Assembly (NCBI RefSeq): GCF_016862635.1
Contig: NZ_BONI01000006.1
Span: forward strand, 124,001-188,000
Direction of reading: 5' to 3'
Source of the DNA: Catellatospora coxensis
GTDB lineage: Bacteria; Actinomycetota; Actinomycetes; Mycobacteriales; Micromonosporaceae
Length of the DNA: 64,000 nt
The position numbers and the translations under genes were made by a program. A model generated the notes under the pieces. The model did no database searches, was not told the DNA's origin, and saw only the letters and a program-made list of their open reading frames with translations. Every line of letters begins with the position of its first letter. Position 1 is the first letter of the stretch. Shown here in pieces: positions 2,345 to 52,501 of the stretch.

Positions 2345-2395
2345 TGGGAAGGGCACCTTCTACATCGCGGAGCGATGGGAAGGTGCCCTTCCTTT
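2345..2395 (-). repeat. 31-bp-register element A1 (inverted type)
   Basis: Half-sites at 2348-2360 (GAAGGGCACCTTC) and 2379-2391 (its reverse complement), starts 31 bp apart. The element lies between convergent genes, 10 bp from the aldo/keto reductase stop and in sense orientation to that gene. Confidence 0.9.
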
Positions 2396-2404
2396 GCTTC
2401 GGGG

Positions 2405-3391
2405 TTACCAGCGGTGGTGGATCTGGGGGCGGATCAGGTCGTCGTAGACCTCGGTGACGACGCGGAGCTGGTCGGGGAGCAGGGCGGGCAGGTCGGCGGC
2501 GGCGGCGTTGGCGCGGGCCTGCTCGGGATTGCGAGCGCCGGGGATGACCACGGTGACGCCGGGCTGGTCGATGATCCAGCGCAGCGCGAACTGGGCCATG
2601 GTCGCGCCGGACGGCACCAGCGGGGCGAGGCGGCGCACCGCGGCCAGGCCGGTGGCGAAGTCGACGCCGGAGAACGTCTCGCCGACGTCGAACGCCTCAC
2701 CGTGGCGGTTGTAGGTGCGGTGGTCGTCCGCCGCGAACGTGGTGTGCTCGTCGTAGCGCCCCGACAGCAGGCCGCTGGCCAGCGGCACCCGGGCGATGAT
2801 GCCCACCCCGGCGGCCGCGGCGGCGGGCAGCACCCGCTCCAGCGGCTTGAGCCGCAGCGCATTGAAGATGATCTGCACGGACGCCACGTGCGGCCGGGCG
2901 ATCGCGGTCAGCGCCTGGTCACAGGTCTCCACGCTGACGCCGTACGCGGCGATGCGCTTCTCCTCGACCAGGGTGTCCAGCGCGTCGTAGACGGCCTCGG
3001 CGGAGTACACCTCGGTCGGCGGGCAGTGCAGCTGGACCAGGTCCAGCGTGTCCACCCCGAGGTTGGCCCGGGACCGGTCGTTCCATGCCCGGAAGTTGTC
3101 CATGTTGTAGTTGGCCGCCTCCTGGGCGACCCGGCGGCCCATCTTCGTGGCCACGGTGATCCCGTGGTCGGCCCCGCGCTCGCGCAGGAACCTTCCGATC
3201 AGGGTCTCGCTGCGGCCGTCGCCGTACACGTCGGCGGTGTCGATGAAGTTCACACCCGCGTCGACGGCGGTGGCGAGCACTGCCAGGGCGTCGTCCTCAC
3301 TGACGCTGCCCCAGTCCGCGCCGAGCTGCCATGCGCCGAGCCCGACCACGCTCACATTCCGGCCTGTCCGGCCGAGCATTCGCTGCTGCAC
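2405..3391 (-). CDS. Aldo/keto reductase
   Basis: A 328-residue NADPH-dependent oxidoreductase of the aldo/keto reductase superfamily, (beta/alpha)8 barrel. The catalytic tetrad is visible as D51 and Y56 in DTADVYGDG, K83 in ATKMGRR and H122 in VQLHCPP. The C-terminal part contains the usual nucleotide-binding IPGARNPEQ motif. The physiological substrate cannot be told from sequence. The start is GTG at 3391 with no Shine-Dalgarno; a TAGGCT -10 box at 3398-3403 lies 6 bp upstream, which suggests a leaderless transcript. The gene ends against repeat element A1, its likely terminator. Confidence 0.92.
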   Translation of the reverse strand: MQQRMLGRTGRNVSVVGLGAWQLGADWGSVSEDDALAVLATAVDAGVNFIDTADVYGDGRSETLIGRFLRERGADHGITVATKMGRRVAQEAANYNMDNFRAWNDRSRANLGVDTLDLVQLHCPPTEVYSAEAVYDALDTLVEEKRIAAYGVSVETCDQALTAIARPHVASVQIIFNALRLKPLERVLPAAAAAGVGIIARVPLASGLLSGRYDEHTTFAADDHRTYNRHGEAFDVGETFSGVDFATGLAAVRRLAPLVPSGATMAQFALRWIIDQPGVTVVIPGARNPEQARANAAAADLPALLPDQLRVVTEVYDDLIRPQIHHRW

Positions 3392-3417
3392 CCCGACAGC
3401 CTAGCCGCGCGGCGGGG

Positions 3418-3948
3418 TCACAGGTCGCGGTGCATGACCACGCAGTCGCGGCCGGCTTGGAGGTCGGGGCGGCGGTCGATCTCGGCGTAGTCGAGCCGGG
3501 TCCAGAAGGCGAGCGCGGCCGGGTTGTTGACCAGCACCGCCAGCCGCACCCCGGGCCGGCCCGCGCGGCGCAGGCGCTCGTGGACCTCCTCCGCGACCTT
3601 CCGGCCCAGTCCCCGGCCCTGCCGCCGCGCGTCGACCATCAGCAGCCCGATCCAGGGAAAGCCGTCCACCGGGTGCTCGTCCAGCAGCGCCACGACCCCG
3701 GCCAGCGGATCGCCGCTGTCGGGTGCGGCTTCGGGACGGGGTACGCGCACGAGCAGCACCTCGACGCCGGGCATCGCCAGCTCGCCGGTGAGCGCGTCGG
3801 CCACCTCGGTCGGGCTGACGGTGTCCGGCTCGGGGCCGAACTCGCCGCTGAGGCGGTGGAAGGCGGCGTTTCCGGCGTAGAGCCTGGCGAGCTCGGCCAG
3901 CACGGGTGAGCCTGGAGCGAGGTCGCCCGGAGCGAGCGGGATGAGCAC
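3418..3948 (-). CDS. GNAT-family N-acetyltransferase
   Basis: A 176-residue GNAT protein. The acetyl-CoA pyrophosphate-binding motif A is RRQGRGLGRK at about residues 108-117, and the C-terminal NNPAALAFWTRLDY is the usual motif B region. The substrate is unknown. The GTG start at 3948 follows a TACTCT -10 box (3955-3960) by 6 bp with no ribosome binding site, so the message is probably leaderless. It ends 26 bp before the aldo/keto reductase start on the same strand. Confidence 0.88.
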   Translation of the reverse strand: MLIPLAPGDLAPGSPVLAELARLYAGNAAFHRLSGEFGPEPDTVSPTEVADALTGELAMPGVEVLLVRVPRPEAAPDSGDPLAGVVALLDEHPVDGFPWIGLLMVDARRQGRGLGRKVAEEVHERLRRAGRPGVRLAVLVNNPAALAFWTRLDYAEIDRRPDLQAGRDCVVMHRDL

Positions 3949-3968
3949 GGGCTGAGAGTACCCCCAGG

Positions 3969-4154
3969 TCAGCCCTGGTCGCGCTGGTTGCGGCGCGCCG
4001 GGTTGTTCGCCTTCTCGATGGCGCGTACCAGCTCGGCCTTGGTCATGTGCCAGCGGCCGGTGACGTTGAGCTTCTTGGCCACCCCGAGCAGCTGCTCCTT
4101 GGTCTGGCTCGACTGGTAGCGCAGCTTGCTGCGCATCTCCCGTTGGATCGGCAT
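3969..4154 (-). CDS. Small SAP/Rho-N-like DNA-binding protein
   Basis: A 61-residue basic protein. The central part (KEQLLGVAKKLNVTGRWHMTKAEL in outline) has the helix-extended loop-helix pattern of SAP and Rho N-terminal domains, in which residues such as L, V, G and MTKAELVRAI recur. Similar short proteins are common in actinomycetes and are thought to bind nucleic acid; no specific role is known to me. The ATG at 4154 has a clear GGGAGG ribosome binding site. It is followed by the acetyltransferase gene and preceded by the CBS-domain gene on the same strand, 26 bp away. Confidence 0.8.
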   Translation of the reverse strand: MPIQREMRSKLRYQSSQTKEQLLGVAKKLNVTGRWHMTKAELVRAIEKANNPARRNQRDQG

Positions 4155-4180
4155 GGGGCCTCCCGTCCCTTCGACACTGC

Positions 4181-5759: not shown

Positions 5760-6521
5760 GTGACAGGCCTTTTCGCTTCGATAGGCGTCGACCTCGCCCG
5801 GGAGGACCTGCGGCAGCTCACCATGTCGGTGGTCACCGCGGGCGTCGCGGTGCCGCACTCCCGCCGGTTCTGCGACCACGTGTGGACCGACACCTCGGGC
5901 GCACGAGTGGTCGCCCGGGCCCGCTGGGGCCGCATCCACCACGTACAACCCTCACTCGCCGGCGGCGCGGTGGCGGTGGCCTGCGAGAACATCCGCCTGA
6001 TCGACGACCGTACCGCGGTCATGGACCTGCTCGACGAGACCGACGGCGGCCTGCTCTGCCCCGTCGCCGTACACCTGGAGGACCACACCGCCCTGCACGT
6101 CGCCGGCGGCGCCCTCCCCCGCGGTCAGATCACCCTGTCCGCCCTGGCCGAATCCCTCGAACCGAACCCGCCGCCCACCCCGGACGACCCCACGCCACCC
6201 GGCCTCGTCTGCGACGACCTCACCCGCCCCCACCACGCCGACCCGGCCTGGACCCCCACTCCCCGCGCCCGCCTGCACGGTGCCGTCCGCCTCGCCGAAC
6301 TGCGCACCAACACCCTGACCGGCGAACCCTTCCACTGGCTGCGCCTACACGTCCACCCGGCCGTCACCCTCGACGTCGCCACCCCCGCCGCCCTCCTGCC
6401 CACCAGCCCACCCCCCGGCACCACGCTCCGCCTCCGCGCCACCCTCACCGGCCGCCTCAACCTCCCCCCAAAGGAAGGGCACCTTCATCACCAAATGCGT
6501 AGAGGAAGGGCACCTTCATAA
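5760..6521 (+). CDS. Hypothetical protein whose tail is encoded by repeat A2
   Basis: A 253-residue soluble protein of unknown function. The first 130 residues (IGVDLAREDLRQLTMSVV, then VWTDTSGARVVARARWGR) look folded; the remainder is rich in Pro and Thr. I chose the GTG at 5760 because GGGGAGGG lies 6-8 bp upstream; longer starts in the frame have no ribosome binding site. The last 17 or so residues (PKEGHLHHQMRRGRAPS) are the translation of repeat element A2, which also provides the stop. The original C-terminus has apparently been replaced or extended by the element. No homologue with known function comes to mind. Confidence 0.7.
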   Translation: MTGLFASIGVDLAREDLRQLTMSVVTAGVAVPHSRRFCDHVWTDTSGARVVARARWGRIHHVQPSLAGGAVAVACENIRLIDDRTAVMDLLDETDGGLLCPVAVHLEDHTALHVAGGALPRGQITLSALAESLEPNPPPTPDDPTPPGLVCDDLTRPHHADPAWTPTPRARLHGAVRLAELRTNTLTGEPFHWLRLHVHPAVTLDVATPAALLPTSPPPGTTLRLRATLTGRLNLPPKEGHLHHQMRRGRAPS

Positions 6522-6525
6522 CGCG
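6471..6525 (+). repeat. 31-bp-register element A2 (direct type)
   Basis: Half-sites GAAGGGCACCTTC at 6474-6486 and 6505-6517 in direct orientation, starts 31 bp apart. The element lies inside the last codons of the hypothetical gene and is read in sense orientation. Confidence 0.9.
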
Positions 6526-9848: not shown

Positions 9849-10280
9849 ATGTCCCTACCTCGGGCGCAGGACGACAGGGCGGCACCCGCGGCGCACCTCT
9901 CGCTGCTCGGCGGATTCGAGCTCGCCGTGCACGACGATCCCGTGCCGCTGTCGGGTGGATCGGCCCGGCTGCTGGCCTTCGTGGCGATGCGCTGCCGCGC
10001 CGCCGTGCCGCGAGCCCTGGTCGCGCAGACCCTGTGGCCCGCCGCGCCGGAACGGTGCGCGTACGCCAACCTGCGTTCGGCGCTGGCGCGCCTGCCCCGG
10101 CCCTCCCGGGACGCGCTCGACGTCCGTCCTGACGAGATCCACCTGGCCCATCACGTGAGCGTGGACCTGCACCGGGCCCGCCGGACGGCATACCGCGCCC
10201 TCGATCCGGCGGTCGCCGTACACGACCTCGGACAGAAGGCCGAGGTTAAGAAGGGCACCTTCTTATACGCGGAGCGATAA
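9849..10280 (+). CDS. Short SARP-like winged-helix protein, probably truncated
   Basis: A 143-residue protein with one OmpR/PhoB-type winged helix of the AfsR/SARP kind (HLSLLGGFELAVHDDPVPLS, then LWPAAPERCAYANLRSALAR). SARPs normally continue with a bacterial transcriptional activation domain of about 150 residues. Here that part is missing. The last dozen residues (EVKKGTFLYAER) are encoded by repeat element A3, which also provides the stop. This looks like a gene cut short, or a DNA-binding remnant. The ATG at 9849 is chosen because the domain begins just after it. Confidence 0.65.
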   Translation: MSLPRAQDDRAAPAAHLSLLGGFELAVHDDPVPLSGGSARLLAFVAMRCRAAVPRALVAQTLWPAAPERCAYANLRSALARLPRPSRDALDVRPDEIHLAHHVSVDLHRARRTAYRALDPAVAVHDLGQKAEVKKGTFLYAER

Positions 10281-10302
10281 GAAGGTGCCCTTCCTTTGCC
10301 TT
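10246..10302 (-). repeat. 31-bp-register element A3 (inverted type)
   Basis: Half-sites at 10250-10262 and 10281-10293, starts 31 bp apart. The element lies between convergent genes, 11 bp from the GH43 stop and in sense orientation to GH43. The opposing SARP-like gene reads into it. Confidence 0.9.
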
Positions 10303-10312: not shown

Positions 10313-11902
10313 TCAGGCGGTGTAGGTGGCGTGGGCGAAGTCGGCGGGCATGGCGTTGCCGGACAGGTCGTGGGACCACAGGCCGACGAAGGCGCCGGTG
10401 AAGCCCCAGATCTGGAAGACGCCCTCGGGGCTGGCCTCGATGGCGTGCTCGTCGGACAGGATGCGAGCGTCCAGCGCCGAGCCCAGGCGCTGCCAGTCCT
10501 GGCCGTCCAGCGACCAGCTGAAGCGCAGGTCGGGCAGGTCCAGGTCGGCCCGGAGGTGGACCGGGCCGGTCGGCGGGACCGGGACCGGGGTGTGCGGCGG
10601 GCGGTGCAGCCGGCCCCGGTCGCAGGACAGCAGCTCCAGGCAGCGGCCCAGGCCCTCCCGCCAGGTCAGGTACGCGTAGTGCCAGTTGCGCGTGTTGTAG
10701 AAGGCGGTGATCCCCGCCAGCTGCTGCGGCGAGCGCGGATCGGCCTCGACGGACGCGGCGAAGCCGCACTTCGCCGCGGTGACCCGGCGCGCCACCAGGC
10801 TGGTGTCGAACTTCGACGACGGCGAGCGCCCGCCGTGCAGCCGCAGGTGGCCGGGCCGGGCATGCAGCGACGCCCAGTCGGCGTGGAACGGCCGCCGCAG
10901 CGTGCTCCACTGCGGGCCGAGCACGGGCGCGTCGAAGTCGTCGGTCGCCGGCTCGGCGGGCCACGGGTGCGGAGCGAGGTCGGGCGCCGGGACGGTCAGG
11001 GCGGGCCGTGCTCCCTCGATGCGCGGCCAGCCGTCGGTGGTCCAGTTCACCGGGGCCAGCGCGGTCTCCCGCCCGAGCACGCACTCGTCGCGCTCGGTGA
11101 GCGGCCGCCCGACCAGGTACGCCAGGTACCACTCCCCGGCCGGGGTGTCGACCAGGCTGCCGTGCCCCGCCTTCTGCAGCGGCAGCCTCGGCTCGCGCGC
11201 CGCGCTGACCAGCGGCGTCTGCGGATCGACCTGGTACGGCCCGAGCAGCGTTCGTGACCGCGCCACCGTGACCTGGTGGTCCCAGCCCGTGCCGCCTTCG
11301 GCGGTGAGCAGGTAGTACCAGCCGTCGCGCCGGTACAGGTGCGGCCCCTCGGTGTACAGCGCGGGCGTACCACTGAAGATCGTCACCGGTTCGCCGAGCA
11401 GCTTGCCGGTGGCCCGGTCGAACTCCTGCGCGATGATGCCCGCCGACCAGTGGTGCCCCGGCCGCCAGTCGAGGTCGTTGCTGAGCAGCCAGCTGCGGCC
11501 GTCCTCGTCGTGGAACAGCGACGGGTCGAAGCCCCGGGCGTGCAGCACCACCGGGTCCGACCACGGCCCCTCGACCGAGGTCGCGGTGACGACGTAGTTC
11601 GGCACGTCCCAGAACCCGCCCGCATACCCGGCGACGTTCGTGAACACCAGGTAGAACACCCCGTCGGCGTACGACAGGCAGGGTGCCCACACCCCGCCGG
11701 AGTCGGGCGTGCCGGTCAGGTCGAGCAGCCGCGGCTCGGTGAGCGCGCCGCCCAGCGGCCGCCAGTGCACCAGGTCGCGGGAGTGGTGCAGGCGCACCCC
11801 CGGCATCCACTCGAACGTCGACGTGGCGACGTAGTAGTCCTCGCCCACGCGCAGGATCGACGGGTCCGGGTGGAAGCCGGGCAGGATCGGGTTGCGGATC
11901 AT
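10313..11902 (-). CDS. GH43 beta-xylosidase / arabinofuranosidase
   Basis: A 529-residue cytoplasmic GH43 enzyme of the beta-xylosidase subgroup. The catalytic base is D13 in PGFHPDPSI, and the general acid Glu lies in ALYTEGPHLY in the five-bladed propeller. The C-terminal 200 residues (from DDFDAPVLGPQWSTLRRPF) form the beta-sandwich domain typical of these enzymes. No signal peptide is present, so it acts on imported oligosaccharides, probably xylo- or arabinoxylo-oligosaccharides. Its ATG overlaps the stop of the upstream permease gene by 4 bp (ATGA), showing translational coupling in the importer operon. Element A3 lies just downstream. Confidence 0.9.
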   Translation of the reverse strand: MIRNPILPGFHPDPSILRVGEDYYVATSTFEWMPGVRLHHSRDLVHWRPLGGALTEPRLLDLTGTPDSGGVWAPCLSYADGVFYLVFTNVAGYAGGFWDVPNYVVTATSVEGPWSDPVVLHARGFDPSLFHDEDGRSWLLSNDLDWRPGHHWSAGIIAQEFDRATGKLLGEPVTIFSGTPALYTEGPHLYRRDGWYYLLTAEGGTGWDHQVTVARSRTLLGPYQVDPQTPLVSAAREPRLPLQKAGHGSLVDTPAGEWYLAYLVGRPLTERDECVLGRETALAPVNWTTDGWPRIEGARPALTVPAPDLAPHPWPAEPATDDFDAPVLGPQWSTLRRPFHADWASLHARPGHLRLHGGRSPSSKFDTSLVARRVTAAKCGFAASVEADPRSPQQLAGITAFYNTRNWHYAYLTWREGLGRCLELLSCDRGRLHRPPHTPVPVPPTGPVHLRADLDLPDLRFSWSLDGQDWQRLGSALDARILSDEHAIEASPEGVFQIWGFTGAFVGLWSHDLSGNAMPADFAHATYTA

Positions 11903-12774: not shown

Positions 12775-12784
12775 CGAGGGCTCC

Positions 12785-13747: not shown

Positions 13748-13753
13748 GGGTTC

Positions 13754-19408: not shown

Positions 19409-19422
19409 ACCCGGCCAAGAAC

Positions 19423-19475
19423 AAAGGAAGGGCACCTTCTTAACGCTCCGCGTTATAGAAGGTGCCCTTCTTAAC
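19423..19475 (+). repeat. 31-bp-register element A4 (inverted type)
   Basis: Half-sites at 19427-19439 and 19458-19470, starts 31 bp apart, centre CGCTCCGCG. It begins 14 bp after the stop of the two-module glycosidase and is in sense orientation to it; the other flanking gene is convergent. Confidence 0.9.
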
Positions 19476-19604
19476 ATCACTTGGCCGACGAGCTGCGCAA
19501 AGGCGATCCGAGTTCGTGGGCCGGGCCAGGTGCCGGCGCGCGGTCCAGCAGGTGGGGCCGGGTCAGGCGCCGAGGCGGGGCCCAGTCCAGCGGCCAGGGC
19601 CGGG

Positions 19605-37714: not shown

Positions 37715-37718
37715 GGAC

Positions 37719-37775
37719 AAAGGAAGGGCACCTGCACATCGCGATAGGTAGCGCAAGGGCACCTTCTTAACGCGG
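37719..37775 (+). repeat. 31-bp-register element A5 (direct type, decayed)
   Basis: Half-sites at 37723-37735 (one mismatch at the end) and 37754-37766 (first base changed), starts 31 bp apart, same orientation. It begins 5 bp after the thioesterase stop, in sense orientation. Confidence 0.8.
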
Positions 37776-42165: not shown

Positions 42166-42187
42166 CCTTCCCTGAAGGGCCCGGTGA

Positions 42188-42216: not shown

Positions 42217-42245
42217 CCCCCGGAAATCGGTGGATGCTCTGCGCG

Positions 42246-43514: not shown

Positions 43515-43579
43515 GACGACCCTCCTTGGGGGTGTCAGTAGGAACCCGGCCGCTCATCAGGGCAATTCGCGGCCGGGTT

Positions 43580-43594
43580 GAGAGAGCGCTCTCA
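43580..43594. promoter_or_regulatory. CebR-type operator, site 1
   Basis: TGAGAGAGCGCTCTCA spans 43579-43594, with a perfect 12-bp core GAGAGCGCTCTC. It lies 65 bp upstream of cebE. The known CebR site of Streptomyces, TGGGAGCGCTCCCA, has the same centre. Confidence 0.75.
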
Positions 43595-43675
43595 CAGCAG
43601 AGGATGGAGTCGTCCTCAAGCCCTGTCAAGGGCTGATTACCTTCTCGTTACCAAGCTGTGCAAACGCTCTCTCCC

Positions 43676-43689
43676 TGAAAGCGCTCTCA
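43676..43689. promoter_or_regulatory. CebR-type operator, site 2
   Basis: TGAAAGCGCTCTCA, a near-palindrome with the same AGCGCT core, about 110 bp before cebR. With site 1 it brackets the divergent promoters and suggests autoregulation. Confidence 0.7.
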
Positions 43690-43799
43690 CGTGCAGCTTC
43701 GTGCCGTAACGAGGACGGGGTAAGGTCACGGTCGCCGGGATGTGATCCGGCACAGGTCGGCGGCATTGCCACCGGCGATGAGCACAATGAGGAGAAGGC

Positions 43800-44810
43800 A
43801 TGAGCCAGGCACATGAGCGGCCGACGCTGGAGGCCGTGGCACGTCTGGCGGGGGTGTCCCGGGCGACGGTGTCGCGGGTCGTCAACGGCTCGCCCAAGGT
43901 CGCCGAGCCGATCCGCAGCGCGGTGCGCCGGGCCGTCGAGGAGCTGGGCTACATCCCCAACGCGGCCGCCCGGAGCCTGGTCACCCAGCGCACCGACTCG
44001 ATCGCCCTGGTCCTGCCGGAGAGCGCCAGCCGCGTCTTCTCCGACGACCCGTTCTTCCCGAGCATCATCCACGGCGTCAGCCAGGAGCTCGACGCCGCCG
44101 ACAAGCAGCTCGTGCTGATGATGACCAACACGGTCGGCGGGTACGAGCGGGTCGAGCGCTACACCACCGCGCGCCACGTGGACGGGGTGCTGTTCGCCTC
44201 GACGCACGGCGTGGACCCGCTGCCCGGGCAGCTGCACCGGCTCGGCATGCCGGTCGTCGTCAGCGGCCGCCCGCTGGGCCGCTCGGCGGTCCCGTACGTC
44301 GACGTGGACCACATCGGCGGCGTGCGGGCCGCCGTACGCCACCTGCTCGACTCGGGCCGGTCCCGGATCGCCACCATCGCCGGGCCGCAGGACATGGTCG
44401 CCGGCATCGACCGGCTCGCCGGCTACCGGGCCGAGCTGCGCGGCTCCGACCGGCGCTCGATCGTGGCCGTCGGCGACTTCACCCGCGAGTCCGGCGCGAC
44501 CGCGATGCGCCAGCTGCTGGAGGACGACCCGCTGCTCGACGCGGTCTTCGTCGCCTCGGACCTGATGGCGCACGGGGCCATCACCACGCTGCGCGAGCTC
44601 GGCCGGCGCATCCCCGAGGACGTCGCCGTGGTCGGCTTCGACGACTTCGACATCTCCCGGTACACCGACCCGCCGCTGACCACGGTCCGGCAGCCGATCC
44701 TGGAGCTGGGCCGCGAGCTGGCCCGCCAGCTGCTGCGGGTGATCGCGGGCGAGGAGGTCCCGCCGTCCGTGGTCCTGCCGACCGAACTCGTGGTACGCGC
44801 ATCAGCCTGA
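43800..44810 (+). CDS. cebR: LacI-family repressor CebR
   Basis: A 336-residue regulator. The helix-turn-helix is TLEAVARLAGVSRATVSRVV (about residues 9-28), the hinge follows NGSPKVAEPIRSAV, and a sugar-binding domain fills the rest, ending GFDDFDISRYTDPPLTTVRQ. ATG 43800 has a GAGGAGA ribosome binding site. Position, divergence from cebE and two AGCGCT palindromes in the gap match CebR, which is released from DNA by cellobiose. Confidence 0.9.
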   Translation: MSQAHERPTLEAVARLAGVSRATVSRVVNGSPKVAEPIRSAVRRAVEELGYIPNAAARSLVTQRTDSIALVLPESASRVFSDDPFFPSIIHGVSQELDAADKQLVLMMTNTVGGYERVERYTTARHVDGVLFASTHGVDPLPGQLHRLGMPVVVSGRPLGRSAVPYVDVDHIGGVRAAVRHLLDSGRSRIATIAGPQDMVAGIDRLAGYRAELRGSDRRSIVAVGDFTRESGATAMRQLLEDDPLLDAVFVASDLMAHGAITTLRELGRRIPEDVAVVGFDDFDISRYTDPPLTTVRQPILELGRELARQLLRVIAGEEVPPSVVLPTELVVRASA

Positions 44811-44833
44811 CCGGATTCGGATATACAGGACTC

Positions 44834-46183
44834 ATGGCTGAAGAAGTGGACGTCATCGTCCTCGGCATGGGCGTCGGCGGCGAGGAGGTCGGCGGCAAGC
44901 TGGCCATGGCCGGGCTGAGCGTGCTCGGCATCGAGAACCGGCTCGTCGGCGGCGAGTGCCCGTACTGGGGCTGCATCCCGAGCAAGATGATGATCCGGGC
45001 TTCCGGCCTGCTGGCCGAGGGCCGCCGGATCAACGGCATGGCGGGCTCCTCGGAGGTCTTCCCCGACTGGGCGCCGGTCGCGAAGCGCATCCGCGAGGAG
45101 GCCACCGACTTCTGGGACGACAAGGTCGCCGTCGACCGGTTCACCGAGCGCGGCGGCCGCTTCCTGCGCGGCACCGGCAAGCTGGCCGGGCCGAAGCGGG
45201 TCGAGGTCGACGGGCAGGTGTACACCGCGCGCAAGGGCGTGGTCCTCGGCACCGGCACCAAGGCCGCGGTCCCGCCGATCCCCGGGCTGGCCGAGACCTC
45301 GTTCTGGACCAACAAGGAGGCCATCGAGGTCGAGGAGCTGCCGACGTCGCTGACCGTGCTCGGCGGCGGCGCGATCGGCCTGGAGCTGGCCCAGATGTTC
45401 CAGCGCTTCGGGGTGCGGGTCACCGTCATCGAGGCGATGGACCGGCTGATGGCGTACGAGGAGCCCGAGTCGTCGGAGCTGATCACCGAGGTGCTCCAGC
45501 GGGACGGCGTCGCCGTGCACACCGGCTGCCGGGCGGTCCGGGTCGAGGGCAACACCGTGCACCTGGCGGACGGCCGATCGTTCGCCTCGGAGAAGCTGCT
45601 CGTCGCCACCGGGCGCACCGCCGACCTGCACAAGCTCGGCCTGGACACGGTCGGCCTGGACCCGGCGGCCAAGGAGATCACCGTGGACGGGCACATGCGG
45701 GCCGCCGACGGGCTGTGGGCCGTCGGCGACTGCACCGGCCACGGCGCGTTCACGCACATGGCGATGTACCAGGCGGCCATCGCGATCCGCGACATCCTCG
45801 GCCAGGAGGGGCCGCCCGCCGACTACCGGGCGCACCCCCGGGTCACCTTCACCGACCCCGAGATCGGCTCGGTCGGGCTGACCGAGGAGGCGGCCCGCCA
45901 CCAGGGCATCCACGTGCAGACTGCGTACACCAAGATCCCCGAGGCGACCCGCGGCTGGATCCACAAGGCGGGCAACGACGGGTTCATCAAGCTCGTCGCC
46001 GACCGCGACCGGGACGTGCTGGTCGGCGCTACCTCGGCCGGGCCGACCGGCGGCGAGGTGCTCAGCGCGCTGGCCGTCGCCGTGCACGCCCAGGTCCCGG
46101 TGCACGTCCTGCAACACATGATCTACGCGTACCCGACCTTCCACCGCGCCATCGAGGCGGCCGTACAGCAGCTGGAGGTGTAG
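44834..46183 (+). CDS. Pyridine nucleotide-disulfide oxidoreductase, not a lipoamide dehydrogenase
   Basis: A 449-residue FAD enzyme with the class I disulfide reductase layout: FAD motif VIVLGMGVGGEEVGGKLA, redox-active C42 and C47 in GGECPYWGCIPSK, an NAD(P)-binding motif LGGGAIGLELAQMFQRFG, and a dimerisation domain. At the C-terminus lipoamide dehydrogenases have HAHPT, with a catalytic His; here the stretch reads YAYPTFHR, with Tyr in that place, closer to mercuric reductase-like proteins. The substrate is therefore open (a metal, quinone or small disulfide). It starts 23 bp after cebR, in the same direction. Confidence 0.85.
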   Translation: MAEEVDVIVLGMGVGGEEVGGKLAMAGLSVLGIENRLVGGECPYWGCIPSKMMIRASGLLAEGRRINGMAGSSEVFPDWAPVAKRIREEATDFWDDKVAVDRFTERGGRFLRGTGKLAGPKRVEVDGQVYTARKGVVLGTGTKAAVPPIPGLAETSFWTNKEAIEVEELPTSLTVLGGGAIGLELAQMFQRFGVRVTVIEAMDRLMAYEEPESSELITEVLQRDGVAVHTGCRAVRVEGNTVHLADGRSFASEKLLVATGRTADLHKLGLDTVGLDPAAKEITVDGHMRAADGLWAVGDCTGHGAFTHMAMYQAAIAIRDILGQEGPPADYRAHPRVTFTDPEIGSVGLTEEAARHQGIHVQTAYTKIPEATRGWIHKAGNDGFIKLVADRDRDVLVGATSAGPTGGEVLSALAVAVHAQVPVHVLQHMIYAYPTFHRAIEAAVQQLEV

Positions 46184-46197
46184 GGCACACTGCGGCC

Positions 46198-46272
46198 ATG
46201 AGCGAGCGGCAGCGAGCGAATCATGAGCCCAGTGGCCATGCCTGCGACGAGCGCAGCGAGGAGCAGGCATGA
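46198..46272 (+). CDS. 24-codon leader peptide coupled to the next gene
   Basis: ATG at 46198 opens a 24-residue frame (SERQRANHEPSGHACDERSE) that stops with TGA at 46270-46272, overlapping the next start codon (ATGA). Its last part runs through a hairpin, CATGCCTGC (46237-46245) with GCAGGCATG (46263-46271), that hides that start codon. A ribosome translating the leader would open the hairpin. Whether the peptide is made is unknown, and this sequence may be a dispersed repeat of the family. Confidence 0.45.
   Translation: MSERQRANHEPSGHACDERSEEQA
46237..46271 (+). promoter_or_regulatory. Hairpin burying the start codon of the membrane protein gene
   Basis: Perfect 9-bp stem CATGCCTGC with GCAGGCATG and a 17-nt loop. 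The ATG of the downstream gene is the last part of the right arm, and the GAGGAG ribosome binding site lies in and next to the loop. Confidence 0.55.
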
Positions 46273-46697
46273 CGCAGCTCATCGTCCGGCTCGGGCTGGC
46301 CGGCATGGCGGTGGTGCACCTGTGGTGGGGGCTGTGGGCCTACTCCGCCCCGCGCCACTTCTTCACCACGTTCCCCGGCCTCGGCCACCACTGGACCGCC
46401 GCGTACCCGCCGTACAACGAGCACCTCACGGCCGACCTGGGCGCGACGTTCCTGACCCTGGCCGTCCTGCTGGCCGTACCCGCGATCCGCTACCGCCGCG
46501 CCACCGCCCGCCTCGCCCTGGCCGGCTCCATCACCTTCAACACCCTCCACCTGGGCTTCCACACCTTCCACCACGGCACCCTCACCGGCCTCGACCTCGG
46601 GGCGAGCCTCGTCACCCTCGTCGCGGGCCTGGGCGTGCCGGTCGCACTCTTCCTGCTGGCCCCAAAGGAAGGGCACCTTCTTCACGCTCCGCGTTAA
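46269..46697 (+). CDS. Four-helix membrane protein with repeat-encoded tail
   Basis: A 142-residue membrane protein with about four hydrophobic helices (LIVRLGLAGMAVVHLWWGLW, LTADLGATFLTLAVLLAV, a third near FNTLHLGFHTFHHG, a fourth near LVTLVAGLGVPVALFLL). His residues are numerous (HFFTTFPGLGHHW, HLGFHTFHH), so heme or metal binding is possible. No family is recognised. It starts with GAGGAG upstream and is coupled to a leader peptide. The last residues, PKEGHLLHAPR, are encoded by repeat element A6, which supplies the stop. Confidence 0.7.
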   Translation: MTQLIVRLGLAGMAVVHLWWGLWAYSAPRHFFTTFPGLGHHWTAAYPPYNEHLTADLGATFLTLAVLLAVPAIRYRRATARLALAGSITFNTLHLGFHTFHHGTLTGLDLGASLVTLVAGLGVPVALFLLAPKEGHLLHAPR

Positions 46698-46717
46698 AGA
46701 AGGTGCCCTTCTTAACC
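46664..46717 (+). repeat. 31-bp-register element A6 (inverted type)
   Basis: Half-sites at 46668-46680 and 46699-46711, starts 31 bp apart, centre CGCTCCGCG. It overlaps the end of the membrane protein gene in sense orientation and lies between convergent genes. Confidence 0.9.
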
Positions 46718-46746
46718 TTCGGCACCCGCTGAGCTGCGGATTTTCT

Positions 46747-48513
46747 TCAGGCGAGCTGGGTGGACTGGAGGCGGGCGTACGAGCCGCGGCGGGAGAGAAG
46801 CTCGCCGTGGTCGCCGATCTCCTCGATGCGGCCGTCGCGCATGACGATGATGCGGTCGGCGTTGCGGATGGTGGACAGCCGGTGCGCGACGACGAAGACG
46901 GTACGGCCCGCGACCAGGCGCTCCATGGCCTGCTGGATCAGCGCCTCGGAGTGGGTGTCCAGAGCGGAGGTCGCCTCGTCGAGGATCAGCACACGCGGGT
47001 CGCGGATCAGCGCCCGCGCGATGGCCAGGCGCTGGCGCTGGCCGCCGGACAGGCGCGCGCCGCGCTCGCCGACGACCGTGTCCAGGCCGTCGGTGAGCTG
47101 GTCGACGAAGTCCAGCGCGTTCGCGTCGGCCAGCGCCTGGCGGACCCGGTCCAGGGGCACGTCGGCCATGCCGTACGTGACGTTCTCGAAGATGCTGCCC
47201 TCGAACAGGATCGGCTCCTGCGGCACCACCGACACGAAACGCCGGTAGGTGCGCAGGTCCAGGGTCTCCATGTCGCGGCCGTCGAGCAGCAGGCGGCCCG
47301 AGGTCGGCCGGAGGAAGCCGATGACCAGGTTCAGGATGGTGGACTTGCCCGCGCCCGACGGGCCGACCAGCGCGATGCGCTCACCCGCCGCGACGTCGAG
47401 GTCGAAGTCGCGTACGGCGCTGCCTGCCGCTCCGTCGTACGCGAAACCCACGCCCTCGAACCGCACCGCGCCGCGCACCTCGTCGACCCGCAGCTTGCCC
47501 GCGTTGACCTCCAGGTCGGGGGCCTGCAGCAGCTCGCCCGCCGAGCGCACCGACTCCAGCCCCTTGACGAAGATCGGGCCGAGGCTCATCAGCGTCATCA
47601 CCGAGCCGGTCAGCGTGGAGAAGTACGCGCTCAGCATCACCACGTCGCCCTCGGTGATCGGGGCCCAGCCGTAGTACGCGACCAGCGCCGACCCGGCCAG
47701 GCAGGCCACGCTCAGCACCTGCATCTGGGTCCAGGCCAGCGCGCCGAAGCGGCCGTTGAGCAGGTCCAGGCGCAGACCCGCGCGCAGTACGCGGTCCAGC
47801 GAGCCGTCCACCCGGCGCAGCGCGTCGCGTTCCAGGCCGTGCGCGCGGGTGATCGGGATCAGCGTGGTCATCTCGGCGACCCGCGACGACAGCCGCTCGA
47901 CCTCGCGGCGGAACGACTCGTTGTCGGTGCGCATCCGGTTGCGCAGCTTCATCACCAGGAACGCCGCGCAGGGCACCAGCACCAGGAACACCGGCAGGAA
48001 CAGCGGGGCCCGCAGCGCGATCACGACGGTGCCGCCGAGCAGCATCATCAGCGCGCCCACGCCCACGTCGCCGGCCTGCTGCACCATCTGCTCGATCGCC
48101 TCGACGTCGCGGATCACCTTCGACTGCAGCACGGCCGCGCTGGAGCGGGAGTGGTAGCCGATGGACAGCTCCTGCATCCGGCGGCACAGGGCCGAGCGCA
48201 GGCGGGTGCCCATCCGGCGGACGGAGCCGCTGTGGTTGCGTACGAACAGCACGTGGAAGGGGTAGTTGAGGCTCAGGCAGGCGAGCATGAGGCCCGCGTT
48301 CCACCACAGCCGCTCGACCGGTTCGTGGCGCACCACGACGTCGATCACGTTGGCGGTGACCAGGGGCAGCAGCCAGGTCGGGCTGTGCTTGACGGCGAAC
48401 GCCAGCACCCCGAGCAGCAGCCGCCAGCGGTCCTCGCGCAGCAGGTAGGCGACGGTGCGTACCGGGTGTTCGCCGTGGTAGCGGTGGTCAAGGGGATGCT
48501 GGGCCAGCGCCAT
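46747..48513 (-). CDS. ABC exporter half-transporter (fused permease-ATPase)
   Basis: A 588-residue protein with a six-helix membrane domain (about 30-320) and a C-terminal ATPase: Walker A GPSGAGKST, signature LSGGQRQR, Walker B VLILDEATSALD, and switch His in VVAHRLST. This is the MsbA/LmrA-like exporter layout and it should work as a homodimer or with a second half. The substrate (lipid, peptide or drug) is unknown. I chose ATG 48513, preceded by a modest AGG ribosome binding site; longer starts lack support. The 300-bp region upstream to 48813 holds only element A7. Element A6 follows the gene. Confidence 0.9.
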   Translation of the reverse strand: MALAQHPLDHRYHGEHPVRTVAYLLREDRWRLLLGVLAFAVKHSPTWLLPLVTANVIDVVVRHEPVERLWWNAGLMLACLSLNYPFHVLFVRNHSGSVRRMGTRLRSALCRRMQELSIGYHSRSSAAVLQSKVIRDVEAIEQMVQQAGDVGVGALMMLLGGTVVIALRAPLFLPVFLVLVPCAAFLVMKLRNRMRTDNESFRREVERLSSRVAEMTTLIPITRAHGLERDALRRVDGSLDRVLRAGLRLDLLNGRFGALAWTQMQVLSVACLAGSALVAYYGWAPITEGDVVMLSAYFSTLTGSVMTLMSLGPIFVKGLESVRSAGELLQAPDLEVNAGKLRVDEVRGAVRFEGVGFAYDGAAGSAVRDFDLDVAAGERIALVGPSGAGKSTILNLVIGFLRPTSGRLLLDGRDMETLDLRTYRRFVSVVPQEPILFEGSIFENVTYGMADVPLDRVRQALADANALDFVDQLTDGLDTVVGERGARLSGGQRQRLAIARALIRDPRVLILDEATSALDTHSEALIQQAMERLVAGRTVFVVAHRLSTIRNADRIIVMRDGRIEEIGDHGELLSRRGSYARLQSTQLA

Positions 48514-48749
48514 GTCGTAACCTGCCTCGCCGGGCGGCCCGCGCGCTTCGGGGTCCTCGGGCGCGGCGAGCGGCCCTTCGCCTTCGAAGTCCAGGCACGA
48601 GCCTAGGCGACGGCGACCTCGCGGGCCAAGGCGGTCGGCGTCGAGCCGCTGCGCCCTGCCCACCGCGGCCGGCCGGGCGGCCGCCTGGGCGACGCGGCGC
48701 ACCCGTCTCCAACCGGGCACGTCTGCCCTGCTCAGCCGCATCGCGACGT

Positions 48750-48800
48750 CAGGAAGGGCACCTTCTACAACGCGGAGCGTTAAGAAGGTGCCCTTCCTGA
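48750..48800 (-). repeat. 31-bp-register element A7 (inverted type)
   Basis: Half-sites at 48753-48765 and 48784-48796, starts 31 bp apart. It lies 14 bp after the peroxiredoxin stop on the minus strand, in sense orientation. Confidence 0.9.
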
Positions 48801-48813
48801 CGCTTGCTCTTGT

Positions 48814-49281
48814 TCAGGCGAGGGACTGGACTACTTCCAGGGCGCTGGTGACGTGTTTGCCGATGTTGGCCTGGGAGGAGAAGACGTTGCGGACCACGCC
48901 CTCGCGGTCGATGACGTAGGTGACCCGGCCGGGCAGCAGACCGAAGGTGGCCGGGACGTCGTACGCCTTGCGCACCTCGCCGCCCGCGTCGGCCAGCAGC
49001 AGGAACGGCAGCCGGTAGCGCTGGGCGAAGCCGTCGTGCGACTCGACGGAGTCCGAGCTGACGCCGATGACCTGCGCACCGGCCTCGGTGAAGACCTCGT
49101 AGCTGTCCCGGAAGGAGCAGGCCTCGGCAGTGCAGCCGGAGGTGTTGTCCTTGGGGTAGAAGTACAGGACCACGGTCTGCTTGCCGCGGAAGTCGCTGAG
49201 CCGCACCGTCTCACCGCCCTGCGAGGGCAGCTCGAAGTCGGGGGCCACCTCGCCCACCTGCGGACCACGTGCCTTCGCCAT
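48814..49281 (-). CDS. bcp: Peroxiredoxin, BCP type
   Basis: A 155-residue thiol peroxidase of the bacterioferritin comigratory protein group. The peroxidatic Cys is C50 and the resolving Cys C55 in SGCTAEACSF, five residues apart as in atypical 2-Cys BCPs. Thr and Arg of the active site (YPKDNTSGCT and a later SSDSVESH) are present. It reduces hydroperoxides in the cytoplasm using thioredoxin or mycothiol. ATG 49281 has a GGAGG ribosome binding site. It is followed by element A7. Confidence 0.93.
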   Translation of the reverse strand: MAKARGPQVGEVAPDFELPSQGGETVRLSDFRGKQTVVLYFYPKDNTSGCTAEACSFRDSYEVFTEAGAQVIGVSSDSVESHDGFAQRYRLPFLLLADAGGEVRKAYDVPATFGLLPGRVTYVIDREGVVRNVFSSQANIGKHVTSALEVVQSLA

Positions 49282-49366
49282 GCCTGCCTCCACTGTCACC
49301 GGAACATCCACCGTAGGACCCGAATCGTATTCGTGTCCGCCCGGGCCGACCACATGCGCCGACGGC

Positions 49367-49397
49367 GGAGGGCCGATACAGAGCGTATCGGCCCTCC
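49367..49397 (-). terminator. Perfect 13-bp hairpin after the GH6 gene
   Basis: GGAGGGCCGATAC (49367-49379) with GTATCGGCCCTCC (49385-49397), 5-nt loop. It lies 18 bp downstream of the GH6 stop on the minus strand. Confidence 0.8.
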
Positions 49398-49415
49398 GGT
49401 CCTGCTCAGCCGCTC

Positions 49416-50879
49416 TCAGCTGCAGGTGACGTTGTTCAGTTTGAAGGCGGTCGGATTCGTGTTGGTCCCGCTGTACGTCGCCTGGAAGCCGAAGTTCGCG
49501 GTCCCGTTCGTGGCGATGCTGCCGTTGTGCCCGGCGTTGCGGGCCGTGACGTTCGCCCCGCTGGCCGTGACCGTGGCGTTCCAGGCGTTGGTGACCGCCT
49601 GGTTGCCGCTGTACGTCCAGGTCAGCGTCCACGACGTGAGCGCCGGCCCACGGTTGGTGATGACCACCGACGCCACGAAGCCGTTGTTCCACTGGCTGTC
49701 GATCTTGTAGCTCACCGAGCAGGCCCCGGTGCCCTGGCTGGCCGACGGGGACGGCGAGGGCGGGGTGGACGGCGAGGCCGAGGGCGACGGCGGAGCCGAC
49801 GGGGACGGCGACGCCGAGCGCGACGGGGACACCGACGGCGACGGCACCGTGGACGGGCTCGGCGGCGGGCTGGTCACGATGCCGTTCTGCGCCAGCGAGT
49901 ACGCCAGGTCCGGCACGAACTGCCCCGCGGCCGCGGCGCAGCCGTCCGCCTCACCCGGCGGCTTGATCCAGATGAACGCGTCGACGGTCGCCTCGTTGGT
50001 GGCGGTCGTCGGCGCCTGCCCGGTGCCCCGGCCCGCCGGGTCGCACCACTCGCTGCCCAGCGGGCCCTTGCCGTTGCGGGCGGTGTCGATGACCTGGTGC
50101 AGGTTGCCGTTGCCGAGCGCGGTGAGCACGTTGCGGCCGAAGCTGATCTCGTCGGCGGTCCAGCGGAAGTTGGAGGCGTTGGAGTAGAAACCGGCCGCGT
50201 TGGCCACGCCCGCCGCCTGCAGCCGCGACGCGGTGTCCGCCGCGCTGTTCCAGGCCGAGTGACCCGCGTCGAGATACACCTTCACGCTCGGGTTGACCTG
50301 CTTGAACTTCGTCACCGCGTAGCTGATCGCGGAGTTGCGGTCGGCCTTCTCGGTCGACGACAGGCAGGTCTGCAGGGCCAGCGAGTCCGGCTCCAGGATG
50401 ATCACGGCGGTGCGCGTGCCGAGGCCGGCGGCGAAGCTGTCGATCCAGGTCCGGTACGCGCTGATGGTCGGCGCGCCGCCCGCGCTCGCCCCGCCGCAGT
50501 CGCGGTTGGGCAGCATGTACGGCACGAGCACCGGGATCTGGTTCACGCTGTTCGCGGCGTTGACGTATGACGTCACCTGAGACTGGATCGTGCTCTGGTT
50601 GTAATTGGCGAACCAGCGCGCCTGCGGCTGGCTGCCGATGCGCTGGCTGATCAGCGACGCGCGCGAGTCGTTCGGGTTGGCCGCGAGCCACTGGTTCACG
50701 CCGGACGTGGGATCGCGGTAGAAGCTGCCGGTCAGGGTGCCGGCCGAGGCTTCGGTGGTCGCCAGCAGCACCCCGGCCAGGGCGGTCGCGGCGGTCATGG
50801 CGGCGGCCGCGCCGAGCGCGACCAGGCGCCGGTCAGACCGGCGGCGGTGGTGCGGCGATGACGTGAGATCGGGGGTCAA
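49416..50879 (-). CDS. Secreted GH6 cellulase with C-terminal CBM2
   Basis: A 487-residue exported cellulase. After a signal peptide (hydrophobic core AAAMTAATALAGVLLAT, cleavage near ASAGT) comes a GH6 catalytic domain with the general acid D165 in IILEPDSLA, LDAGHSAWN, and WIKPPGEADG. A Pro/Ser-rich linker leads to a CBM2 (SYKIDSQWNNGFVASVVITN through VTCS), which binds crystalline cellulose with exposed Trp residues. The closed-tunnel or open-cleft type cannot be told, so endo- or cellobiohydrolase. The start is TTG at 50879, chosen because AAGGAG lies 6 bp upstream and no ATG or GTG leaves an intact signal peptide. Confidence 0.9.
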   Translation of the reverse strand: MTPDLTSSPHHRRRSDRRLVALGAAAAMTAATALAGVLLATTEASAGTLTGSFYRDPTSGVNQWLAANPNDSRASLISQRIGSQPQARWFANYNQSTIQSQVTSYVNAANSVNQIPVLVPYMLPNRDCGGASAGGAPTISAYRTWIDSFAAGLGTRTAVIILEPDSLALQTCLSSTEKADRNSAISYAVTKFKQVNPSVKVYLDAGHSAWNSAADTASRLQAAGVANAAGFYSNASNFRWTADEISFGRNVLTALGNGNLHQVIDTARNGKGPLGSEWCDPAGRGTGQAPTTATNEATVDAFIWIKPPGEADGCAAAAGQFVPDLAYSLAQNGIVTSPPPSPSTVPSPSVSPSRSASPSPSAPPSPSASPSTPPSPSPSASQGTGACSVSYKIDSQWNNGFVASVVITNRGPALTSWTLTWTYSGNQAVTNAWNATVTASGANVTARNAGHNGSIATNGTANFGFQATYSGTNTNPTAFKLNNVTCS

Positions 50880-50972
50880 CGCACTCTCCTTGAGACGTCT
50901 GTGATTCGGTCGACGTGCAGATTCCTGCCCGGACCCGGCTACGACAGACGTCACGGCCTACGCCACCCGTAC

Positions 50973-50986
50973 GAACCAAATGGTTC
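50973..50986. promoter_or_regulatory. Possible operator upstream of the cellulase gene
   Basis: GAACCAAATGGTTC, a perfect 6-2-6 palindrome 94 bp before the TTG start. It differs from both LacI-type motifs in the window, so a different regulator may bind here. The rest of the gap to 51042 shows nothing else. Confidence 0.5.
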
Positions 50987-51042
50987 TGCCCTTCGCACGA
51001 CGGCGCCTCAGCTCCACCTCCATCATTCCCTCCCACCACACC

Positions 51043-51100
51043 AAAAGGAAGGGCACCTTGTTAACGCTATTGGTAGAGGAAGGGCACCTTGTTAACGCTC
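51043..51100 (+). repeat. 31-bp-register element A8 (direct type)
   Basis: Half-sites at 51048-51060 (last base changed) and 51079-51091 (last base changed), both direct, starts 31 bp apart, spacer containing GGTAGAG as in A2. It lies 35 bp from the AEC transporter stop but in opposite orientation to it: the one copy that breaks the orientation rule. Confidence 0.85.
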
Positions 51101-51134
51101 CACCCTCCGTGAGCAGGCACGGAGCAGGTCCGCG

Positions 51135-52202
51135 TCAGGCCGGGCCGAGCAGCCAGAGGATCAGGGTGAGGGTGCCCATCGACAGCAGGCTGGAGAACAG
51201 GATCGCGTCCCTGCTCAGCGCGGTCGAGGCACGGAACTCCGAGGCGTACACGAAGGTGTTCTGCGCCGTCGGCAGGCCCGCGACCAGCGTCACCGCCAGC
51301 AGCGCCGCACCGTCCAGGCCCAGCAGGTATCGCCCGATCAGATAAGCCGCCAGCGGCTGCGCGACCACCTTCAGTAGCACCGCCGCGGTCACCTCGCGCC
51401 CCGGCAGCCGCCACGACGACGCGTCCGTCTGGTGCAGCGACATGCCCAGCGCGAACAGCGCCGCCGGCACCGCCGCGCCGCCCAGCAGCTCCAGCGGCCG
51501 CAGCAGCCACTCCGGCGGCAGCCACCCGGCCGCGCTCGCGGTCACACCTGCCATCGACCCCAGGATCACGGGGGTACGCAGCGGCAGCATCGCCAGCCGC
51601 CGCCAGCGCGACACCGCGACGCTACCGGCCCGCTCCCCCGCCCCGGTGCCGCGCGCCGGCCCGGTCGCCCCGGCGTGCACACCCTCCCCCGTGCTCACGC
51701 CCGTGGCCGCACCGTTCACGGCAGCCCGTGCCGCTTCCTCGGCCGCCAGCCGGTCCAGCTCGGCCCGGTGCGCGGAGGCGTCGAGCCGCCCGACGATCAG
51801 CGGGGTCAGCAGCATGGTCTGGAAGACCAGCACCGCCATGATCAGCGAGACGTCGTCGAGCACGTACACCGCGACCGGCACGCCGAGGTTGCCCGCGTTG
51901 AGATACGCCGAGGCCATCGCCGCGATGACCCGGTCCCCGTCGGGGCCGGGCATGAGCCGGCGCGCGACGGCGTACACCGACAGCCCGATCAGCAGCGTGC
52001 TCAGCGCGATGGCGGCCAGCGGGCGCAGCGGCAGGTCCCCGAGCGGCACCTTGACCAGCGACGTGAACAGCACGCACGGGATCGCGATGACGAAGGTGAA
52101 GTGCGCCAGCGCCTGCTGGGTGGCCCGGGTGAGCACCCCGAAGCGCATCGTGCCCCAGCCCAGGGCGGTGATCATCCAGATCGGAGCGAACGCGGCGAAC
52201 AC
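51135..52202 (-). CDS. AEC-family (auxin efflux carrier-type) transporter
   Basis: A 355-residue membrane protein with about ten helices in two sets of five (MFAAFAPIWMITALGWGTM at the start, GLPTAQNTFVYASEFRAST near the end), as in the AEC family of secondary exporters of malonate- or amino-acid-like compounds. A hydrophilic, Gly-rich insert of about 50 residues (AATGVSTGEGVHAGATG) separates the halves. The GTG at 52202 follows a TAGCGT -10 box (52209-52214) by 6 bp and has no ribosome binding site. The substrate is unknown. Confidence 0.87.
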   Translation of the reverse strand: MFAAFAPIWMITALGWGTMRFGVLTRATQQALAHFTFVIAIPCVLFTSLVKVPLGDLPLRPLAAIALSTLLIGLSVYAVARRLMPGPDGDRVIAAMASAYLNAGNLGVPVAVYVLDDVSLIMAVLVFQTMLLTPLIVGRLDASAHRAELDRLAAEEAARAAVNGAATGVSTGEGVHAGATGPARGTGAGERAGSVAVSRWRRLAMLPLRTPVILGSMAGVTASAAGWLPPEWLLRPLELLGGAAVPAALFALGMSLHQTDASSWRLPGREVTAAVLLKVVAQPLAAYLIGRYLLGLDGAALLAVTLVAGLPTAQNTFVYASEFRASTALSRDAILFSSLLSMGTLTLILWLLGPA

Positions 52203-52266
52203 CTGGTCACGCTAGTCCTCGGCCCGCCGCACCCGCACAGCCGGGTGCCGCGCGCGCCGAACCACC

Positions 52267-52358
52267 GCCGCCATGATCGCCCGATTTGCGTGGCATATGG
52301 TCGTATCGGCGCTCAAGATACGCACAGGTGCCCGGCACATCGACCGATCTTGGCGGCG
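52267..52358. repeat. Single-copy long palindrome (type F)
   Basis: CGCCGCCATGATCG (52267-52280) pairs with CGATCTTGGCGGCG (52345-52358) with one mismatch; an inner hairpin GTATC/GATAC lies inside. With element A9 this is all that the 318-bp gap from 52203 to 52520 contains. Confidence 0.6.
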
Positions 52359-52446
52359 CGAACACGCCGATGCGGGCGCCGGTCACGTGGACCGGCGGAC
52401 GACCGGCCCGTTCACGCGCGATCGGCCCTGCTCACCCCGCATCCCG

Positions 52447-52501
52447 CGTTAAGAAGGGCACCTTCTTTAACGCGGAGCGTTAAGAAGGTGCCCTTCCTTT
52501 G
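52447..52501 (-). repeat. 31-bp-register element A9 (inverted type)
   Basis: Half-sites at 52453-52465 and 52484-52496, starts 31 bp apart. It lies 20 bp after the CoA ligase stop on the minus strand, in sense orientation. Its halves match the consensus fully. Confidence 0.9.

Follow-up and report, generated by a model that had tools for sequence, protein, structure and literature searches.

What keeps two short palindromes exactly 31 bp apart, copy after copy, in the genome of an actinomycete? The question is raised by a 64,000-nt stretch of contig NZ_BONI01000006.1 of Catellatospora coxensis (hereafter the window), in which a first-pass annotation described nine dispersed elements (A1 to A9), each with two 13-bp copies of GAAGGGCACCTTC in a fixed 31-bp register, six of them inverted and three direct. 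All nine are present, the half-sites start 31 bp apart in every one, and A2, A5 and A8 are the direct copies, the others being inverted about a centre that reads CGCTCCGCG on one strand. The 13-bp word holds exactly in both halves of seven elements; in A5 and A8 each half departs from it at one position, and the annotation had placed the element starts 3 to 6 bases ahead of the first half. Matches to GAAGGGCACCTTC with up to three mismatches number 70 in the window, compared with a shuffle mean of 17.1 (largest shuffle 28). The observation is real and wider than first stated. With a probability of roughly 0.5, we take the elements to be a polar repeat, similar to dimers of repetitive extragenic palindromic (REP) sequences, which would supply hairpins or terminators at the 3' ends of genes and be homogenised within genomes.

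The whole genome of the window (G000; 9.35 Mb, 222 contigs) was compared with further genomes (labelled G001, G002 and so on, with contigs C1, C7 and so on within each). The element is polar, spans about 54 bp and reads (c)AAAGG-AAGG-NNN-CCTT-N20-AAGG-NNN-CCTT-(C)TTAAC; it was oriented from sequence alone by its flanks and spacer. Its left end is AAAGG in Catellatospora or TAAGG in G150, and its right end is CTTAAC. Integron attC-like ends (CTTAAC/GTTAA spacer) were considered and dropped since, on inspection, these words are internal and the outer ends differ. In G000 and G007 the first three-base core is GCA and the second is TGC or GCA (TGT once), while the cores of G150 are mostly GCC with GGC or GCC and those of G084 are variable. 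Cores are complementary in 92 of 137 elements, identical in 34 and otherwise in 11; A5 was excluded from this set owing to its mismatches. Class I comprises the 42 elements that have identical cores (34) or a spacer ending in GTAGAGG (36 in all), and class II the remaining 95, of which 86 have complementary cores. Both classes have the same ends and register. Class II has mostly complementary cores, a spacer that is often self-complementary and a long, strong hairpin, while class I mostly has a weaker one. A long class of 74 to 75 bp carries an extra hairpin after the left half and has its halves 63 to 64 bp apart; in this class CGTC follows the left half. Spacings of 59 to 69 occur 66 times in 16 genomes, led by G007 (16), G005 (14) and G002 (12).

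Strict pairs, in which GAAGG-N3-CCTTC occurs twice with 4 to 34 bases between, number 193 in the whole genome, and the reversed-pattern control gave 0. The first-pass annotation had named two outcomes that would refute it, a genome-wide spacing plot lacking a 31-bp peak and an absence of bias towards gene ends, and both tests came out in favour of the observation. With at most one mismatch per half, an 857-kb sample (eight segments of G000 contigs with listed pairs, C10 and C15 having been chosen near known matches) holds 35 pairs at 31 bp, together with one at 30, two at 32 and one at 64; in the spacing control, one shuffle, there was a single pair, at 30, and allowing two mismatches added none at 31. 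Convergent genes flank 19 of 37 elements (one of 38, at a segment edge, was omitted) compared with 82 of 459 intergenic gaps of at least 60 bp. Four genomes, from three genera, were examined at all spacings from 21 to 41. Of the 148 pairs found, 137 were at 31, five at 30, two at 32, and four, which bridge neighbouring elements, at 40, 40, 41 and 41. Densities in the G007, G150 and G084 stretches are meaningless because these were mostly chosen where elements were already listed. Lone halves are scarce, 64 of 69 exact sites belonging to 32 pairs at a spacing of 30 to 32, and with so few isolated exact sites the half-site alone was dropped as the repeat unit.

All 11 genomes examined from the same genus, G000 included, carry 37 to 245 strict pairs, and strict pairs are present in 4 of 50 genomes outside it (23 in G020 and one in each of three others). 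A 29-base pattern taken from A4 and A9 matched 22 stretches among named genomes, all in four Catellatospora species. The looser AAGG-N3-CCTT pair has a match in 74 of 200 genomes of the family and 19 of 44 genera, many of these single and perhaps due to chance; the variant with a four-base core, AAGG-N4-CCTT, was matched in only 17 of the 200, at most twice in each. On contig C1 of G003 no element lies before 943 kb among the matches listed, where about 15 were expected; the gap may be genuine, or it may reflect masked sequence or the way matches were listed.

Position relative to genes, which were called by a custom codon-usage script and not a standard gene finder, is strongly biased. The upstream gene ends towards the left end in 116 of the 137 oriented elements, and 91 of these 116 begin 0 to 30 nt past the stop, where random intergenic placement would put 16-19%. 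The gene contexts are convergent for 78 elements, tandem in the same direction for 38, tandem against for 14 and divergent for seven, while null placement gives 14-21% convergent and 27-35% divergent. Placement and polarity agree between the two classes, with a median distance from the stop of 8 nt for class II and 4 nt for class I. The opposing gene's stop lies within 0 to 30 nt in 29 of 61 class II elements and 5 of 31 class I elements, a difference that would follow if class II acted for both convergent genes. A2 and A6 sit inside predicted gene 3' ends, to which they would provide the last codons and the stop; relatives without an element at these sites have different gene ends there.

A stable predicted RNA hairpin lies soon after the stop, as in intrinsic terminators. 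The 95 class II elements fold at a mean of -34.4 kcal/mol (z -7.3) and the 34 class I elements with identical cores at a mean of -23.0 kcal/mol (z -2.6). The more stable strand is the sense strand in 78 elements and the antisense strand in 41, of which G007 supplies 50 and 10, respectively. Direct halves also pair with each other, because each GAAGG-NNN-CCTTC half is nearly self-complementary, and a class I without a hairpin, first drawn from three elements, was dropped after all 42 had been folded. The first-pass annotation had reasoned from the fixed spacing of direct halves to a DNA-binding protein, a step that is not supported, since near-palindromic halves allow direct copies to pair as well. 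In pooled class II (95), double changes number 30 in the core and 33 in the inner stem, compared with 6.3 and 19.7 in shuffles, and neither value was reached in 500 shuffles; for the inner stem within G000 alone the figures are 17 and 6.7, again with 0 of 500. One of two slid-register controls (sum 19, the register of symmetric copies) is also raised, at 35 compared with 28.1 (7 of 500), and the other is not. Double changes are marginal in class II of G084 alone. For 35 sequences of the long class, RNAalifold predicts 19 pairs, three of which are changed on both sides (in 3, 3 and 1 sequences). The compensatory changes in inverted copies and the extra covarying hairpin of the long class further weaken the protein inference, and the results fit the annotation's other suggestion, that the element replicates under a structural constraint in addition to any role as a terminator. 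Rfam 15 gave no match in the window at the gathering score; permissive searches with A4 and one long element yielded sub-threshold matches only.

Other species carry elements behind the same genes, and class is kept in 74 of 78 orthologous pairs. Spacer identity is 0.690 for orthologs, 0.698 for copies within one genome and 0.648 for unrelated copies of two genomes, in a set where C. sichuanensis and C. vulcania are counted twice and some misoriented spacers lower identity. In G004 the orthologs of A7 and A9 do not differ from each other, and on one side the identity extends over ten flanking bases. Since the spacers of orthologs are no more alike than those of same-genome copies, these data can be read as homogenisation of copies within genomes. 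Flank-matched comparisons found an intact element in 170 cases and none in 171, a number in which collapsed and decayed copies are counted; between G007 and G002 one site differs by a 31-bp collapse that leaves a single half. At the A7 site of G003 and G001, a gene-end hairpin on a CGCAACTCTTAAAGAGTTGCG-like word replaces the element.

If the elements are REP-dimer-like repeats of gene 3' ends, the RNA copied from the upstream gene would fold as a hairpin and end or protect the mRNA, with class II able to serve both genes of a convergent pair and class I mainly one. The 31-bp register could come from descent, the direct form looking like a 31-bp unit duplicated in tandem, and also from holding the two halves in pairing register. 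Spread or overwriting within a genome might occur by gene conversion or by an enzyme other than the Y1/RAYT transposase. Several results weigh against this explanation. The covariation shuffles ignore the relatedness of copies, and the pooled core signal is largely between genera, as cores hardly vary within the Catellatospora samples. Class II of G007 and G150, taken alone, is not significant for double changes (the observed value is attained in 72 and 329 of 500 shuffles, respectively), class I spacers show no excess (5 compared with 6.2 in shuffles), and covariation contributes little to the RNAalifold energy of the long class (-0.21 of -18.48 kcal/mol). Few U residues follow the hairpin: per 10 nt, the sense strand has 2.1-2.7 T and the opposite strand 2.7-3.8, with 1.4-1.9 in intergenic sequence, and a U-tail scan of positions 44001-54000 detected none of A6 to A9. 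A8 is oriented against its gene, while the other eight window elements follow one, and it lacks a stable fold (z +0.1, +1.5), although the ortholog in G007 has one of -22.7 kcal/mol. Selection for a hairpin alone fails to account for the near-constant loop length, for a third motif described below or for the phase of neighbouring elements. What is explained least well is the exact spacing of 31, together with the third site, and for this reason a protein reading stays in play.

It is possible, if doubtful, that the halves are paired sites of a dimeric DNA-binding protein on AAGG-N3-CCTT, three helical turns apart, that blocks or anchors transcription at gene ends. The register is shared by three genera despite spacers that differ at a mean of 6.9 of 20 positions, every half is palindromic, and direct and inverted pairs alike hold register and position. 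The long class is near six turns, and some spacings of 59 to 69 are three-half arrays with steps of 30-31 bp (five in G150, three in G084 and one each in G006 and G064). The compensatory changes in core and inner stem and the long-class hairpin indicate pairing, however, and strong polarity towards the gene, which symmetric sites would not be expected to show, and copy numbers that are patchy within genera speak against such a protein.

The third motif, GASCWG (TGAGCAGGG, TGAGCTGCGG and GACCTGCGG), occurs 20 or 21 bases past the second half in 18 of 33 G000 elements (6 and 12, respectively), so that it starts 30 or 31 bp from the start of that half. Gene ends at large predict about 0.011 occurrences per element and four-base window, and the opposite strand has six in all across 100 nt. 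Near-matches follow A2 and A5 by eye. Of the two C. sichuanensis sets, which overlap in part of their DNA, one has the motif in 11 of 17 elements and the other in 3 of 3; the C. vulcania sets have it in 2 of 10 and 2 of 6. Its absence from the samples of G007 (0 of 64), G150 (0 of 22) and G084 (0 of 18) weighs against the protein reading.

Facing neighbour elements lie 40 to 113 bp apart, and their distances lean to one 10.5-bp phase. For 24 hand-collected distances R is 0.53 (reached in 2 of 5000 random draws), for 14 distinct distances 0.50 (130 of 5000) and for 40 distances including half-decayed copies 0.47 (1 of 5000). The phase is not zero, several hand-listed pairs are related copies, and the hand list omits matches resembling coding sequence or a single variant element (for example, 137-base matches, G007 2335318, G003 6634115) as well as two ambiguous G150 cases. 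A fixed rule yielded only eight distances (400 bp or less), for which 401 of 5000 draws reach the value at 10.5, which is not significant, and 1 of 5000 at 10.7. A judgement by eye that neighbours show no helical phasing was withdrawn after the test gave a lean, and the lean is a lead for the protein reading. A third motif at 30-31 bp and a phase lean are what a DNA-level register would give, and together they shift weight towards protein binding and away from the hairpin. Facing pairs 100-101 bp apart (Table 1) have middle segments with GASCWG-like words near the ends and are possibly a larger composite element.

A more specific proposal, which we hold unlikely, combines the two layers. A dedicated Micromonosporaceae protein would read paired AAGG-N3-CCTT at a three-turn pitch, and in one Catellatospora clade the third GASCWG site too, acting as a roadblock that ends transcription, with the hairpin as a second, RNA-level layer.

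It is also improbable that the family is a selfish, REPIN-like miniature mobile element whose insertion behind genes is tolerated and whose terminator effect is a by-product. Such an element would agree with copy numbers that are high and patchy within genera (0 to 266; 165 in G020 and 1 in G081, 85 in G064 and 0 in G089), with cores and spacers that are genome-specific at shared sites, with presence or absence at short empty sites (for example, G009 25001 compared with G005) and with the 14 of 116 elements that a predicted upstream gene enters. Fixed orientation to the gene and the class kept at orthologous sites nevertheless look selected, and no target duplication was evident by eye in the flank-matched comparisons. 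A Y1 transposase (PF01797) match occurs in 8 of 24 genomes, the G000 copy carrying an internal stop, and none was found in nine genomes, namely G002 (with its 245 strict copies), G005, G006, G008, G009, G020, G064, G090 and G150. RAYT mobilisation is unsupported, as several high-copy genomes are without PF01797. That the elements are ordinary factor-independent terminators, alike through recent common origin and with nothing special in their register, is very improbable: sister genomes nearly without the family, G081 and G089, do use GC-rich, unrelated hairpins at gene ends (60 kb of each), and long stable hairpins with few U are reported for Streptomyces in excerpts of PMC12207403, but by eye the other gene-end hairpins of that sample share no evident sequence relationship, the family is common to several genera with an identical register, and the weaker-folding class I is retained at orthologous sites.

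Excerpts of PMC3733652 describe GTAG/CGTC REP dimers as palindrome pairs in head-head, tail-tail or head-tail order, in most cases separated by 20-100 bp, with spacers that have complementary ends or small stem-loops, many of the pairs lying 3' of coding regions. The family resembles REP, BIME and REPIN sequences in its paired short palindromic units and in being high-copy, extragenic and palindromic. Unlike the GTAG/CGTC REPs, it lacks a tag at both palindromes, since among 137 elements GTAG stands three bases ahead of the right half in 64 but precedes the left half in only 2; unlike REPINs with RAYT, it is without RAYT in several high-copy genomes; and unlike these dimers it has one dominant spacing and a fixed orientation behind the stop codon. 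TRIT is reportedly a terminator model for Mycobacterium tuberculosis from the RNIE work of Gardner et al. in 2011, and is said to be a lineage-specific actinobacterial terminator family. Both it and the present family are actinobacterial, from different lineages, and they are set beside each other here by description only. RNIE's TRIT is cited in an excerpt of PMC3526491. In excerpts of a Term-seq atlas (PMC12207403), the intrinsic terminators of Streptomyces, a GC-rich actinobacterium, have long, very stable hairpins with few U; they are defined by mapped ends, with repeated sequence unmentioned in those excerpts, while the family here is known from its repeated sequence alone. It shares a hairpin with textbook terminators but lacks their U-tract, and it shares palindromes and copy number with REPs but lacks their tag and transposase. 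In Neisseria and Haemophilus, pairs of DNA uptake sequences are used as terminators. Unlike uptake sequences, exact halves here are rarely single (64 of 69 are paired), and the family is not known to be linked to DNA uptake. The idea of paired repeated words forming hairpins at gene ends is raised in an excerpt of PMC2267715. No paper on this repeat family was among the matches listed in literature searches, and no wider claim is made. The family bears on how GC-rich actinomycetes with few U-tracts end transcripts, and it offers a ready-made test set, with fixed polarity, two hairpin-strength classes at the same positions, one dominant spacing and many natural variants. The family is notable, too, for being REP-like and abundant in genomes that gave no match to a REP transposase.

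Table 1. Coordinates of the elements and of other features (positions in the window unless a genome and contig are given).
Feature	Coordinates	Strand	Halves	RNA fold z	Remarks
A1, class II (inverted)	2343..2396	-	2348/2379	-9.7	between convergent genes; core 14 nt from stop of - gene 2405-3355
A2, class I (direct)	6469..6522	+	6474/6505	-1.5	orthologous site: direct-type copies in G003 (cores GCA/GCG) and G006 (GCG/GCG)
A3, class II	10245..10298	-	10250/10281	-8.5	20 nt from stop of - gene 10313-11902
A4, class II	19422..19475	+	19427/19458	-9.5	19 nt past stop of + gene 16418-19408
A5, class I (direct)	37718..37771	+	37723/37754	-2.5	8 nt past stop of + gene 37187-37714; ortholog direct in G006, inverted in G001
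A6, class II	46663..46716	+	46668/46699	-7.4	predicted upstream open reading frame 46269-46697 terminates within A6; ortholog direct in G001; site without element in G003, G004, G010
A7, class II	48748..48801	-	48753/48784	-10.5	18 nt from stop of - gene 48814-49281
A8, class I (direct)	51043..51096	+	51048/51079		polarity exception; 44 nt past stop of - gene 51135-52202, yet oriented against that gene; orthologous sites direct in G002, G004, G006, G007
A9, class II	52448..52501	-	52453/52484	-6.4	25 nt from stop of - gene 52521-54071
GASCWG of A1	2324-2329	-			
GASCWG of A4	19490..19495	+			31 bp past start of second AAGG
GASCWG of A6	46731-46736	+			
GASCWG of A7	48728-48733	-			
GASCWG of A8	51111-51116	+			
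GASCWG of A9	52428-52433	-			
Long-class examples	G007 C1 889746-889820; G000 C1 294559-294633				
Facing pairs 100-101 bp apart, G000	C7 110675-110785; C73 44205-44315; C35 73266-73377; C97 15102-15213 and 32133-32244				
Facing pairs 100-101 bp apart, relatives	G003 C1 2903628-2903738; G004 C11 290926-291037				
Gene-end hairpin on CGCAACTCTTAAAGAGTTGCG-like word	G000 C1 6612-6674				
Dispersed repeat TTGGCCTATCTCATCGAA and complement	568-601; 24538-24571; G000 C1 20594-20642				
Duplicated multi-gene block	11896-16174; 40432-44711				
Open reading frame with internal repeats	54384-55655				

The window holds other repeated sequences. A further dispersed repeat, TTGGCCTATCTCATCGAA with its complement, appears on contig C1 of G000 as a long hairpin where two convergent genes end. 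A multi-gene block is duplicated about 28.5 kb apart, its aligned pieces (families D3-D17) being 71-83% identical. One open reading frame contains at least five presumably RCC1-like repeats, each about 150-162 bp long and resembling WGDNxxGQLGDGT in translation.

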